DNA of 39,614 bases from an uncultured Erysipelotrichaceae bacterium (GTDB lineage: Bacteria; Bacillota_I; Bacilli_A; Erysipelotrichales; Erysipelotrichaceae), in NCBI GenBank assembly GCA_902766435.1, contig CACXDM010000162.1:1-39614 (forward strand), in the 5' to 3' direction. Position 1 is the first letter of the stretch; each line of letters opens with the position of its first letter. Made by a program: the position numbers and the translations under genes. Below, piece after piece: positions 31,201-36,216 of this stretch. The notes beneath the pieces were generated by a model. The model saw only the letters and a program-made list of their open reading frames with translations, was not told where the DNA came from and searched no databases.

Positions 31201-31851
31201 ATGAGTACTTCATCGGAAATTAAATATATCTGTCCTTACTGCGGCAGAGAGATGACAATCACCATTTATCAGACGGTTAATGCCGATACGGATCCCGATC
31301 TCAGGGAAGCATGCATGAGCGGTGATATCTTCCGTCATTCCTGTCCGCACTGCCATACCGATTTCATGGTGCAGAATCCCCTTGTCTATTCGGATCCTTC
31401 CCATAAATTCGTGCTGTATGTTTCGGAAAACCCCGTCAGCGGGATCGCTGATTTTGCCGGACCTCTTGTCAGAAGCGGCTATCGCCTGAGAAGGTGTGAA
31501 AGCGTCCGGGCGTTTACGGAAAAAATACAGATCTTTGAGGACGGAATGGATGATGTGGCGGTGGAGCTTGCCAAGTATGACAGCTTCATTGAGTTCATCG
31601 ACAACCGCAAAGGCCGGCCGGAGGATGTAACTTCCGTTGAATATCAGAGGGTGTTTGACGGTGTGATGAAGATCAATATCCGCACCGATGACAAGGGACT
31701 GACATTCCATATTCCGGTGGGTATGCTGGAAGAGGAGATCGAAGAAGACAAAGAACGCTATGAAGTCAATGACGAAGACTTCCCGTGTGTAAACAGTGAC
31801 TGGATCATTTCCCTGTTTACCGAACCGGCCGGAAACGGCGTGCAGAACTGA
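31201..31851 (+). CDS. CpXC domain protein
   Basis: The 216-residue product starts with a CpXC domain, a small zinc-binding fold of unknown function: CPYCG (C11, C14) and SCPHCHTDF (C48, C51) bracket a roughly 33-residue insert, with a further cysteine at about 38. The following segment (QNPLVYSDPSHKFVLYV) is also typical. The remainder (about 80-216) has no recognisable motif and is acidic. The ATG at 31201 has a ggagg SD; the open frame upstream passes through the hairpin and lacks an SD. A strong terminator follows. Confidence 0.85.
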   Translation: MSTSSEIKYICPYCGREMTITIYQTVNADTDPDLREACMSGDIFRHSCPHCHTDFMVQNPLVYSDPSHKFVLYVSENPVSGIADFAGPLVRSGYRLRRCESVRAFTEKIQIFEDGMDDVAVELAKYDSFIEFIDNRKGRPEDVTSVEYQRVFDGVMKINIRTDDKGLTFHIPVGMLEEEIEEDKERYEVNDEDFPCVNSDWIISLFTEPAGNGVQN

Positions 31852-31861
31852 TCGGACATAA

Positions 31862-31890
31862 CCCGGAGATACTGTTCTCCGGGCTGTTTT
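31862..31890 (+). terminator. Rho-independent terminator after the CpXC gene
   Basis: A perfect 8-bp stem (cccggaga/tctccggg) with a six-base loop is followed by ctgtttta. Confidence 0.85.
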
Positions 31891-32004
31891 ATTCCATGAT
31901 TTAATATCATGCTTCGGCTTTACTTTTCGCGTCTTTTCCTCTACCATAATAAAGTCTTCGGACCATGTTGAAAATCGTTCGGAAGGACGGAAAGGAATGC
32001 AGCT

Positions 32005-32109
32005 ATGAAACAAGGCGTAGTGACTCTTCGTACAAACGATTTCGGATTCCGTGTCTGCGGTATCTGCCGGGCTGTTTTTTTCAACATGGAAAGAGATTCT
32101 TTAATATGA
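32005..32109 (+). CDS. Possible 34-codon leader ORF upstream of purE
   Basis: An ATG with an aaagga SD eight bases upstream opens a 34-residue frame (MKQGVVTLRTNDF...CGICRAVFF) that ends seven bases before the attenuator stem. It resembles no family I know, though it has a CxxC pair. It lies within the proposed aptamer helix, so it may be a coincidence of the RNA structure or a real leader peptide. Confidence 0.25.
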   Translation: MKQGVVTLRTNDFGFRVCGICRAVFFNMERDSLI

Positions 32110-32115
32110 AATGAT

Positions 32116-32143
32116 GCCTGTGGAGTATTCCATGGGCTTTTTT
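32116..32143 (+). terminator. Attenuator-type terminator in the pur leader
   Basis: The stem gcctgtgga/tccatgggc (two G-T pairs) with loop gtat is followed by six T. It lies five bases before the purE SD and must be bypassed to express the operon, unless transcription starts after it. Confidence 0.8.
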
Positions 32144-32160
32144 GACGGAAGGAGAAGCAG

Positions 32161-32661
32161 ATGAAAAAAGCAGCGATCATTATGGGCAGTGACAGTGATC
32201 TCAAGGTCATGTCTGCTGCGGCAGGTGTTCTGGAAGATTACGGAATACCGTATGAAGTACACATTTACTCAGCGCACCGCACACCAGAGGAAACAGCAGC
32301 CTTTGCGGCAGCCGCAAAAGACAACGGATTCGGTGTAATTATTGCCGGAGCGGGAATGTCGGCAGCGCTTGCGGGTGTTCTGGCAGCGCATACCGTACTG
32401 CCGGTAATCGGCGTACCGCTGAAGTCTTCGGTGTTTGACGGAATGGACGCACTCCTTTCGACAGTCATGATGCCGCCCGGAATTCCGGTGGCTTCAGTTG
32501 CGGTCAACGGAGCGAAGAACGCGGCGCATCTCGCAGCCCAGATTCTTGCGGTGGGGGATGAAGCGCTGGCAGAGAAGATTGCCTCCGTGAAGAAGGCGCA
32601 GAAGGAAGCGGTTCTGCAGAAGGACGCATCCGTAATGGAAAAAATGAAGGAATACAGATGA
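32161..32661 (+). CDS. purE: N5-carboxyaminoimidazole ribonucleotide mutase
   Basis: PurE converts N5-CAIR to CAIR in IMP synthesis. The 166-residue product has the class I features MGSDSDLKVM (about 8-17), YEVHIYSAHRTPEE, IIAGAGMSAALAGVLA and the PVIGVPLKSS loop followed by GMDALLSTVMMPPGIPVASVAV. No purK is in the window, although class I enzymes usually depend on it, so purK would have to lie elsewhere. The ATG follows a ggaaggag SD just after the leader terminator. purM follows in the same operon. Confidence 0.96.
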   Translation: MKKAAIIMGSDSDLKVMSAAAGVLEDYGIPYEVHIYSAHRTPEETAAFAAAAKDNGFGVIIAGAGMSAALAGVLAAHTVLPVIGVPLKSSVFDGMDALLSTVMMPPGIPVASVAVNGAKNAAHLAAQILAVGDEALAEKIASVKKAQKEAVLQKDASVMEKMKEYR

Positions 32662-33722: not shown

Positions 33723-34331
33723 ATGGTGAATATTGCTGTACTTGTTTCGGGCGGCGGAACAAATCTTCAGGCACTGATCGATGCTGAACAGGCAGGAAAG
33801 ATTCCCCACGGAAAGATTACGCTTGTTCTTGCGTCCAATCCGAAGGCATACGCGCTGGAAAGAGCGGCGAAAGCCGGGATTCCGACTGCTGTGGTCAGCC
33901 GGAAAGTATATCCTGATCAGGATGCGTATGATCAGGCAATCGTGAATGAACTGAAGAAAAATGATACAGATCTGGTGATCCTGGCCGGTTTCCTGAGTAT
34001 TCTCGGAAGCACGGTGATCCGGGCTTATCCCGACAGGATCATCAACATCCATCCTTCTTTGATTCCTTCCTTCTGCGGCAAGGGATTCTATGGCCTGAAG
34101 GTCCATGAAGCCGCATTGGAGAAGGGCGTTAAGGTTACCGGAGCCACGGTGCATCTGGTCAATGAGATTCCGGACGGCGGAAAGATTCTGCTGCAGAAAG
34201 CAGTGGAAATCGAAGACGGTGATACGCCGGAAGTTCTGCAGAGAAGGGTAATGGAACAGGCAGAATGGATACTGCTGCCGAAGGCGGCGGAGATGATGGC
34301 TGAAAAGATCAGCGCTGAGGAGGAAAAATGA
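33723..34331 (+). CDS. purN: Phosphoribosylglycinamide formyltransferase (GART)
   Basis: PurN transfers the formyl group of 10-formyl-THF to GAR. The 202-residue product has the substrate-phosphate loop VSGGGTNLQALID, the catalytic Asn/His region INIHPSLIPSF (N and H in NIHPS), and VTGATVHLVNEIPDGGKILLQ, where the Asp is the third catalytic residue. The type is folate-dependent and not the formate-dependent PurT. Its stop overlaps the next start by four bases (ATGA). Confidence 0.96.
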   Translation: MVNIAVLVSGGGTNLQALIDAEQAGKIPHGKITLVLASNPKAYALERAAKAGIPTAVVSRKVYPDQDAYDQAIVNELKKNDTDLVILAGFLSILGSTVIRAYPDRIINIHPSLIPSFCGKGFYGLKVHEAALEKGVKVTGATVHLVNEIPDGGKILLQKAVEIEDGDTPEVLQRRVMEQAEWILLPKAAEMMAEKISAEEEK

Positions 34332-35044
34332 AAGCAGTAAACGTATTTGACTATCTGAAGGAAAATGAATATCCGGGCAGAGGCATCGTGATCGGAAAGA
34401 CACCCTGCGGAAAGAAGATCCGGATCGGCTACTTCATCATGGGAAGAAGTGAGAACAGCAGAAACCGCATCTTTACCGAGGAAGGAAAGGGCATCCGCAC
34501 AGAGGCATTCGATCCTTCAAAGATGGTTGATCCTTCGCTGATCATTTATTCTCCCGTACGTGTATATGAAGATACGACAATCGTCACCAACGGTGATCAG
34601 ACGGACACCGTTTATGATTACCTGGCGGAGGGAAAGTCATTCGAAGATGCTCTCCGGACGAGAACATTCGAACCGGATGCGCCGAACTATACGCCGAGAA
34701 TCTCCGCTGTTGTCAAGGGCGCAGGCTATTCAATGTCGATTCTCAAGAGTGCTGATGGTGATCCCGCTTCGGCATACAGACAGTTCTTTGACTATGCGGA
34801 TGAGCTGCCGGGATTTGGTCATGTGATTCATACATACCGGGAAAACGGAAATCCGATTCCTTCGTTTGAAGGAGAACCCGTTCTCTTTGAAATGGTTAAG
34901 GAACCCTTCGACGCATTCAGTGATCATCTCTGGGAAGCGCTGAATGAAGACAACAAAGTATCCCTGTTTACCAGATCCATCAATATTGAAACAGGTGAAA
35001 CTGAGACAAGAATCTATAACAAGAATGTGAAGGAGGCTGAATAA
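34328..35044 (+). CDS. PurO-type IMP cyclohydrolase
   Basis: A predicted IMP cyclohydrolase of the family first known from archaeal PurO, performing the last ring closure (FAICAR to IMP). The 238-residue product starts KAVNVFDYLKENEYPGRGIVIG, then GYFIMGRSENSRNRIF and VYDYLAEGKSFEDAL, features of the IMP_cyclohyd-like family. In most bacteria this step is done by the N-terminal domain of bifunctional PurH; that domain is missing here, and the transformylase is the next gene, which strongly supports the assignment. The gene overlaps purN by four bases and the next gene by one (TAATG). Confidence 0.85.
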   Translation: MKAVNVFDYLKENEYPGRGIVIGKTPCGKKIRIGYFIMGRSENSRNRIFTEEGKGIRTEAFDPSKMVDPSLIIYSPVRVYEDTTIVTNGDQTDTVYDYLAEGKSFEDALRTRTFEPDAPNYTPRISAVVKGAGYSMSILKSADGDPASAYRQFFDYADELPGFGHVIHTYRENGNPIPSFEGEPVLFEMVKEPFDAFSDHLWEALNEDNKVSLFTRSINIETGETETRIYNKNVKEAE

Positions 35045-36216
35045 TGAAGGAACTCGAACTGAAATACGGATGTAATCCGAACCAGAAACCGTCAAGAATT
35101 TTCATGGAAGAGGGCGAACTGCCGATCAAGGTGCTGAACGGAAAGCCCGGTTATATCAACTTCATGGATGCATTCAACAGCTGGCAGCTTGTCAAGGAAC
35201 TCAAGGAAGCCACGGGTCTTCCCTCTGCCGCAAGCTTCAAGCATGTCAGTCCGGCGGGTGCTGCTGTCGGTCAGCCTCTGTCTGATGTTGAAAGACAGAT
35301 CTATTTTACGGGGGATATGGAACTCTCTCCCATTGCCAGTGCGTATGCCAGAGCAAGAGGCGCTGACAGAATGAGCTCCTATGGCGACTGGGCTGCGCTT
35401 TCCGATATCTGTGACAAGTCCTGCGCGCTGCTTCTCAAGCCGGAAGTATCCGACGGTGTCATTGCGCCGGGTTATACCGATGAGGCGCTTGCGATTCTGA
35501 AAGCGAAGAAAAAGGGCAACTACAACGTCATTCAGATTGATCCTGATTACGTACCGAATCCGGTTGAAAGAAAACAGGTATTCGGCATCACATTCGAACA
35601 GGGAAGAAATGAAATCAAGATTGATGATTCTCTTCTGACAAATATCGTTACCGAGTCCAAGGATCTGCCGGAACAGGCAAAGATCGATCTGAAGATTGCC
35701 CTGATCACACTGAAGTATACGCAGTCCAATTCCGTTGCCTATGCCAAGAACGGCCAGGCGATCGGTGTCGGCGCCGGACAGCAGTCCAGAGTACACTGCA
35801 CGCGTCTTGCCGGAAGTAAGGCAGACAACTGGTGGCTCCGTCAGAATCCGAAGGTTCTGAACCTGCCGTTCAGAAAAGACATCCGCCGTCCCGACAGAGA
35901 CAATACAATCGATGTATATATCTCGGATGATTATGATGATGTCCTCAGAGACGGTACCTGGGAGCTGTTCTTCACGGAAAAGCCGGAAGTCTTCACAAAA
36001 GAGGAGAAGAAGGAATGGATCGCGAAGAATACAGGTGTAGCGCTCGGCTCTGATGCATTCTTCCCGTTCGGTGACAATATCGAACGCGCCCACAAGAGCG
36101 GTGTATGCTATATCGCTCAGCCGGGCGGTTCCGTCAGAGATGACAATGTCATTGAAACCTGCAATAAGTACGGCATTACAATGGTCTGCAACGGCGTCAG
36201 ACTGTTCCATCACTGA
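35044..36216 (+). CDS. purH: AICAR transformylase, stand-alone form of the PurH C-terminal domain
   Basis: This 390-residue enzyme converts AICAR to FAICAR using 10-formyl-THF. It corresponds only to the AICAR transformylase part of PurH: LELKYGCNPNQKPSRIF at the start, the catalytic Lys-His in ASFKHVSPAGAAVG, LKYTQSNSVAYAKNGQAIGVGAGQQSRVHC, and DAFFPFGDNIERA near the end. The methylglyoxal-synthase-like cyclohydrolase domain of normal PurH is absent. It starts on the last base of the previous gene's stop, so the two halves of the pathway step are co-translated. Confidence 0.93.
   Translation: MKELELKYGCNPNQKPSRIFMEEGELPIKVLNGKPGYINFMDAFNSWQLVKELKEATGLPSAASFKHVSPAGAAVGQPLSDVERQIYFTGDMELSPIASAYARARGADRMSSYGDWAALSDICDKSCALLLKPEVSDGVIAPGYTDEALAILKAKKKGNYNVIQIDPDYVPNPVERKQVFGITFEQGRNEIKIDDSLLTNIVTESKDLPEQAKIDLKIALITLKYTQSNSVAYAKNGQAIGVGAGQQSRVHCTRLAGSKADNWWLRQNPKVLNLPFRKDIRRPDRDNTIDVYISDDYDDVLRDGTWELFFTEKPEVFTKEEKKEWIAKNTGVALGSDAFFPFGDNIERAHKSGVCYIAQPGGSVRDDNVIETCNKYGITMVCNGVRLFHH

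Follow-up and report, generated by a model that had tools for sequence, protein, structure and literature searches.

The leader of purE is probably a translation-gated transcription attenuator that controls the purine operon in Erysipelotrichaceae. In the window, by which we mean the whole stretch of DNA analyzed (39,614 nucleotides from an uncultured Erysipelotrichaceae bacterium), a short open reading frame (ORF) with its own Shine-Dalgarno (SD) sequence ends just ahead of an intrinsic terminator, and purE follows directly. This ORF is very likely translated, and we favor the view that its translation controls the terminator, by what would be ribosome masking in this organism.

All features of the leader lie on the forward strand. 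A putative promoter combines a TTTACT box (31919-31924) with CATAAT (31945-31950), and transcription probably starts at ~31957. The spacing of 20 nt between the boxes is long, and a sigma-70 scan did not call them; CTTTACTTT and CATAAT/TAATAT boxes are found again at the promoter place in many related leaders. Because the upstream gene stops at 31851 and is followed by a terminator of its own (31862-31883), we treat the leader as a separate transcription unit. The SD of the leader ORF, GGAAAGGA (31989-31996), is followed 8 nt downstream by an ATG, and GAAAGGA or GGAAGGA occupies the same place in most related leaders. The ORF itself (32005-32109, 34 codons, MKQGVVTLRTNDFGFRVCGICRAVFFNMERDSLI) ends in TGA, and its peptide has no Pfam match. 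Six nucleotides beyond the stop lies the terminator (32116-32143), composed of GCCTGTGGAGTATTCCATGGGC and TTTTTT, with a stem of nine pairs at 32116-32137 (-12.6 kcal/mol). The SD of purE, AAGGAG, is at 32149-32154, and purE (32161-32661; Pfam AIRC, E = 1.2e-58) is the first gene of an operon that continues, based on Pfam matches, with purM, purN, IMP cyclohydrolase, AICAR transformylase, purD and purL. Separate genes encode the AICAR transformylase and the IMP cyclohydrolase (34328-36216); the cyclohydrolase is of the PF07826 type and adjoins the PurH-like transformylase, whose Pfam match starts from profile position 76. No B. subtilis-type PurR was found above the cut-off in 70 genomes of the genus, so control at the RNA level would not duplicate PurR control.

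A DNA search with the leader (BLAST) in 60 relatives returned short chance matches only, and leaders were therefore gathered by synteny with purE. This provided 57 leaders from the genus itself (70 genomes) and 20 from further genera in the order, and a scan of public genomes added 67 usable purE loci, nearly all from other Firmicutes. Those relatives that bear a name are Erysipelotrichaceae of the rumen and gut. Phage records gave no match to the leader. An SD-led ORF that stays open up to the terminator occurs in all 44 usable genus leaders of the ORF type, which form 31 sequence clusters, and starts ~125-180 nt upstream of purE. The chance of an open frame, estimated from shuffles, is ~0.29 per cluster, and the product of 1e-18 is optimistic in that some start codons were chosen by eye. 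The automated count is unaffected by this choice: compared with shuffled controls, the detector found the ORF-terminator layout in 29 of the 33 genus leaders with a scored terminator (2.0 expected), in 5 of 7 leaders in other genera (0.1 expected) and in 6 of 22 in other Firmicutes (0.8 expected). The ORFs stop anywhere from 11 nt before the terminator stem to far past it, and several run through or beyond the terminator. In two Oribacterium purE leaders (L079 and L093), a 55-codon ORF, nearly identical in both loci, ends at the terminator, which suggests that the layout is not restricted to Erysipelotrichaceae.

The leader ORF is absent from 13 genus leaders, four of which carry ZTP riboswitches. 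Among close relatives, purE leaders with a ZTP riboswitch (RF01750) and no leader ORF are L147, L148, L149, L155 and L204. Another conserved leader, GTTAGAAT...CGAACAACTGATCGCCG...CACGGTCGG, occupies the last 130 nt before purE in L145, L146, L150, L151, L152 and L154; it has neither an Rfam match nor a leader ORF, and includes some ZTP-like words. In other genera (L205, L213, L216 and L220), a purine riboswitch is followed by a second attenuator of the ORF type before purE, in which a short ORF such as MVL.R.A.. ends at a terminator, an arrangement of tandem control.

The start of the ORF is embedded in RNA structure in many relatives. In 15 of the 70 genus genomes, a three-way-junction RNA surrounds it (alignment A1 and model R1; L101-L107, L109, L111, L113, L115, L116, L118, L128 and L129), with the SD in the junction and the AUG of the ORF inside P3. 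The stems are P1 (GUUUGG/CCRRAC), P2 (ACCC-NGUC-GGGU) and P3 (GGAGC-UAUGGC...GUUAUGA-CUCU). Of the alignment cells, 97.3% pair, and three pairs are changed on both sides. That number of pairs is unexceptional relative to shuffles (63/500), and it is the count of doubly changed cells and the covariation score that are exceptional (0/500). Codons 2-13 of these ORFs are conserved at 0.87, 0.85 and 0.83 at positions 1, 2 and 3, after which conservation drops to ~0.46; equal conservation at the three positions followed by collapse indicates an RNA constraint laid over the start of the ORF. The covariance model R1, built from 13 relatives, matches once per genome, always ahead of purE and never outside the genus, with no match in 78 other sampled genera of the order. 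We consider this RNA a strongly conserved orphan and a candidate new cis-regulatory RNA.

The window matches R1 weakly, at the syntenic place (13.6 bits, E = 0.82, compared with 85-107 bits in relatives). RNAfold of transcript prefixes ending at 32046-32075 predicts an early 5′ fold over the SD of the ORF (31972-32042), in which AAATCGTT (31972-31979) pairs with AACGATTT (32035-32042) as an 8-bp helix, within which the SD region would pair with codons of the ORF near TCTTCGT. This predicted fold may be a looser counterpart of the three-way junction. An alternative to it is a small hairpin just 5′ of the SD (31976-31989, CGTTC-GGAA-GGACG, -5.4 kcal/mol), in the position of the P2 hairpin or the PyrR stem-loop of relatives. 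A structured 5′ domain that could gate the ORF exists in relatives and is weak in the window, so an RNA sensor may form part of the system; whether the 5′ structure gates the ORF is, in our judgment, evenly balanced. We are doubtful of a more specific version, that the three-way junction, in diverged form in the window, belongs to an unnamed RNA sensor class that would bind either a metabolite from the purine pathway or some unknown protein, and would hide the SD of the leader ORF. Under that version, translation of the ORF, rather than an antiterminator helix, would decide termination, and the sensor would be exchangeable, with a PyrR site in its place elsewhere.

Eight genus leaders (L133, L137 and L139-L144) have a PyrR-type stem-loop at the place of the SD, UCCUUUAA...GUCCNGUGAGGC-AGAAAGGA, and its 3′ arm is the SD of the ORF. 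All eight matches fall below the Rfam cut-off for RF00515. A pyrR gene co-occurs with the site in 7 of 8 cases, relative to 7 of 36 (P = 0.0006). Ordinary PyrR sites also occur in genomes of this group, ahead of the genes for uracil permease. The species that carry these stem-loops may regulate their purine genes through PyrR. Extended to the window, these observations speak for an attenuator with a protein as its main input, in which an RNA-binding regulator (PyrR in the sister species, another one here) would sit on the 5′ stem-loop, hide the SD of the ORF and turn the operon off. Such a system would be the translation-gated attenuator proposed above with protein control as the dominant input, and it is unlikely here. 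The window has no PyrR site, and the hairpin reads CGTTCGGAAGGACG where the PyrR attenuator has a UCCNGNGAGG loop. The genome from which the window comes (G000) yielded no genuine PyrR (best E = 3e-5), and at 88% completeness a missing pyrR is not proof of absence. A match to RF00515 elsewhere in that genome (G000:C63, E = 0.35) was judged to be noise, as it is not a pyr locus.

The same leader had been read, from the sequence only, as a riboswitch of no recognized class, and part of that reading stands. The perfect 12-bp helix on which it was built is present, joining CCATGTTGAAAA (31963-31974) to TTTTCAACATGG (32078-32089). All other perfect inverted repeats in the 206-nt stretch are shorter, and a length of 12 is reached in only 1 of 300 dinucleotide shuffles (P ~0.003) and 1 of 192 window tiles. 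Taken as a whole, the leader exceeds its shuffles in stability only slightly (z = -1.49). The terminator with six T before the SD of purE is also where it was placed, and the claim that no known aptamer class, including purine, ZTP and PRPP, is present holds up: Rfam 15 yielded no match that reached its cut-off anywhere in the window, and relaxing the threshold to E = 10 brought up nothing credible in the leader. Weak matches in the window to Acido-Lenti-1, FopS and C0465, far below cut-off, were rejected. If these parts belonged to an undescribed metabolite riboswitch, the 31963-32089 domain would bind a purine metabolite, the long helix would form, the antiterminator would be lost and transcription would stop. 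The beyond-chance helix, the terminator, the purine context, the lack of an Rfam class and the conserved three-way-junction RNA at the 5′ end of relatives speak for this explanation.

We nonetheless regard such a riboswitch as improbable. In the comparison set beforehand as its refutation test, the long helix and the antiterminator pairing were absent from 43 syntenic purE leaders, so the OFF-riboswitch wiring was not borne out. When the 5′ leader was compared with the 3′ portion of the ORF, the longest complement averaged 5.8 nt (5.5 expected); the antiterminator complement averages 4.1 nt (3.8 expected), and no general antiterminator or 5′-3′ helix was found across these leaders. In the window, CATGGAA (32085-32091) is indeed complementary to TTCCATG (32128-32134) in the 3′ arm of the terminator, but the pairing is near chance, with a 7-nt match to the arm in 5.4% of shuffles (P = 0.054). 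The 103-base domain within the helix exists, but the sequence-only reading overlooked that it holds an SD and an ORF. The ORF spans the 3′ strand of the helix, in codons 25-29, and would have to go unread for the helix to form. The window also scores poorly with the RNA model of relatives. The comparative genomes are one per species and include no close strain of the window in which a window-private helix could be tested for covariation. Attenuation of the pur operon by the leader terminator is supported; the specific riboswitch wiring is not.

The frame of the leader ORF is kept, whereas the peptide is not. In close leader pairs, substitutions are equally distributed over codon positions 1, 2 and 3 (45, 51 and 50), with no internal stop, and a test for an excess of synonymous change was not significant (P = 0.19). 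This absence of synonymous excess changed our reading from a functional peptide to functional translation, and from the sequence comparisons it appears that translation, rather than the peptide, matters. What recurs instead is a run of T. Runs of at least five T occur in 24 of the 31 ORF clusters, relative to a mean of 8.7 and a maximum of 15 in dinucleotide shuffles, and lie mostly 14-52 nt before the terminator. The window has seven T at 32075-32081, 34 nt before the terminator stem, a candidate RNA polymerase pause site. A homopolymer run upstream of the terminator and an unconserved peptide are features of pyrBI-type leaders, as is an SD-led ORF that ends at, in or past an intrinsic terminator, and all of these are found here.

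Could the ORF simply be a tiny ordinary gene, encoding a small protein, with the terminator as its normal end and purE fed by constant, unregulated leakage? The spacing is compatible with this, as ordinary genes of the window also end near terminators (10 nt for rplQ, -2 to 12 nt for others). Terminator stems start at most ~12 nt from the stop codons at window gene ends such as 5572, 10854, 19401, 22547, 31152 and 31851. However, there is no detectable purifying selection on the peptide and it belongs to no family, several of the related ORFs pass through the terminator, and in relatives the SD bears PyrR-type or other conserved structures, which makes this explanation very improbable. Least probable of all is an amino-acid or arrest-peptide attenuator, in which the ribosome would stall at particular codons or on a metabolite-sensing nascent peptide: a leader ORF does precede a terminator and Phe near the C-terminus is common, but no regulatory codon runs were found in the leader ORF sequences, the peptides differ between groups with no conserved amino acids at an arrest site, and the Phe codons are a by-product of the T-run, where the conservation lies.

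The adjacency of ORF and terminator is weak evidence on its own, because ordinary genes here show it as well and because Bacillota are classed as runaway-transcription species, with ribosomes trailing the polymerase (PMC13323073, PMC7858274). A short distance from stop codon to terminator has itself been used as a sign of runaway transcription (PMC7858274). In E. coli, the ribosome suppresses almost all activity of a terminator situated a few bp past a stop codon, an effect that depends on coupling (PMC4824070). Given runaway transcription and genes that end at terminators, the leader terminator probably works by default, and read-through would need a delayed polymerase. We assign that role to the T-run, and would place its contribution through pausing as a tentative element of the model.

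Translation-gated attenuation would then operate as follows. Transcription from the leader promoter would yield a short SD-led ORF followed at once by the terminator. A ribosome arriving at the end of the ORF with RNA polymerase only a short way ahead would cover the 5′ arm of the terminator, allowing read-through and expression of the pur genes; if the ORF were not translated in time, the terminator would form and the operon would be off. Initiation would be set by RNA structure over the SD, which is a PyrR site or three-way junction in sister species and a diverged fold in the window. Slowing of the polymerase at the T-run would provide a second input, so that read-through would follow the supply of nucleotides in the manner of E. 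coli pyrBI. When the ORF is not translated, the long helix could contribute by holding the 3′ part of the ORF and leaving the terminator free; this role could keep the earlier OFF logic and move the switch from a ligand to the ribosome. Weighing against the proposal, a pause at a U-run would respond to UTP, an unexpected signal for purine genes, and it is relatives, not the window, that show the PyrR and three-way-junction inputs.

In the pyrBI attenuator of E. coli, a short ORF is accompanied by a U-rich stretch and an overlapping intrinsic terminator (PMC3641672, PMC4824070). The window leader resembles it (pyrL) in the short leader ORF, the U-rich run within it, the terminator at or inside the ORF end and the nucleotide operon downstream. 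The differences are that the window leader serves purine rather than pyrimidine genes, in a Bacillota lineage thought to be uncoupled, and that Erysipelotrichaceae leaders add an RNA fold or a PyrR-type site over the SD of the ORF. The ORF also stops 6 nt before the stem in the window, whereas the pyrBI ORF runs through the terminator stem. In Salmonella mgtM, the ATP-responsive attenuator of mgtCBR, amino acids are likewise unconserved and an A-run is conserved, and a link between NTP level and coupling has been proposed (PMC3641672). The leaders described here share with mgtM the free amino acids and the conserved homopolymer run. However, the run is of T rather than A, the target operon differs and the outcome is reversed, as high ATP favors expression with mgtM.

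The eight sister leaders share with RF00515 a UUUAA...UCCNGNGAGG stem-loop, here before purE, but their sites overlap the SD of the leader ORF and not an antiterminator. Purine and ZTP riboswitches (RF00167, RF01750) occur at the same place before purE: purine aptamers lie upstream of a similar short ORF in other Erysipelotrichaceae genera, and ZTP aptamers are found in some members of the genus. Unlike these, the window has neither aptamer, and its gate appears to be translation of the ORF. Judged by its sequence features, the layout is a putative member of translation-coupled attenuation that is new in its target, lineage and input parts. Among the open-licence texts searched, we found no report of a translation-coupled leader ORF for purine genes, nor of the Erysipelotrichaceae family of leaders.

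Leader ORFs that couple translation to termination in nucleotide operons are already known from enterobacteria. In Erysipelotrichaceae, one operon swaps its sensors (ZTP riboswitch, purine riboswitch, PyrR site or orphan RNA) while mostly keeping the ORF-terminator output, and PyrR is suggested to act on purine genes in some species. A conserved system with such a layout, in a phylum in which polymerases are thought to outrun ribosomes, would allow the place and timing of coupling there to be tested directly.
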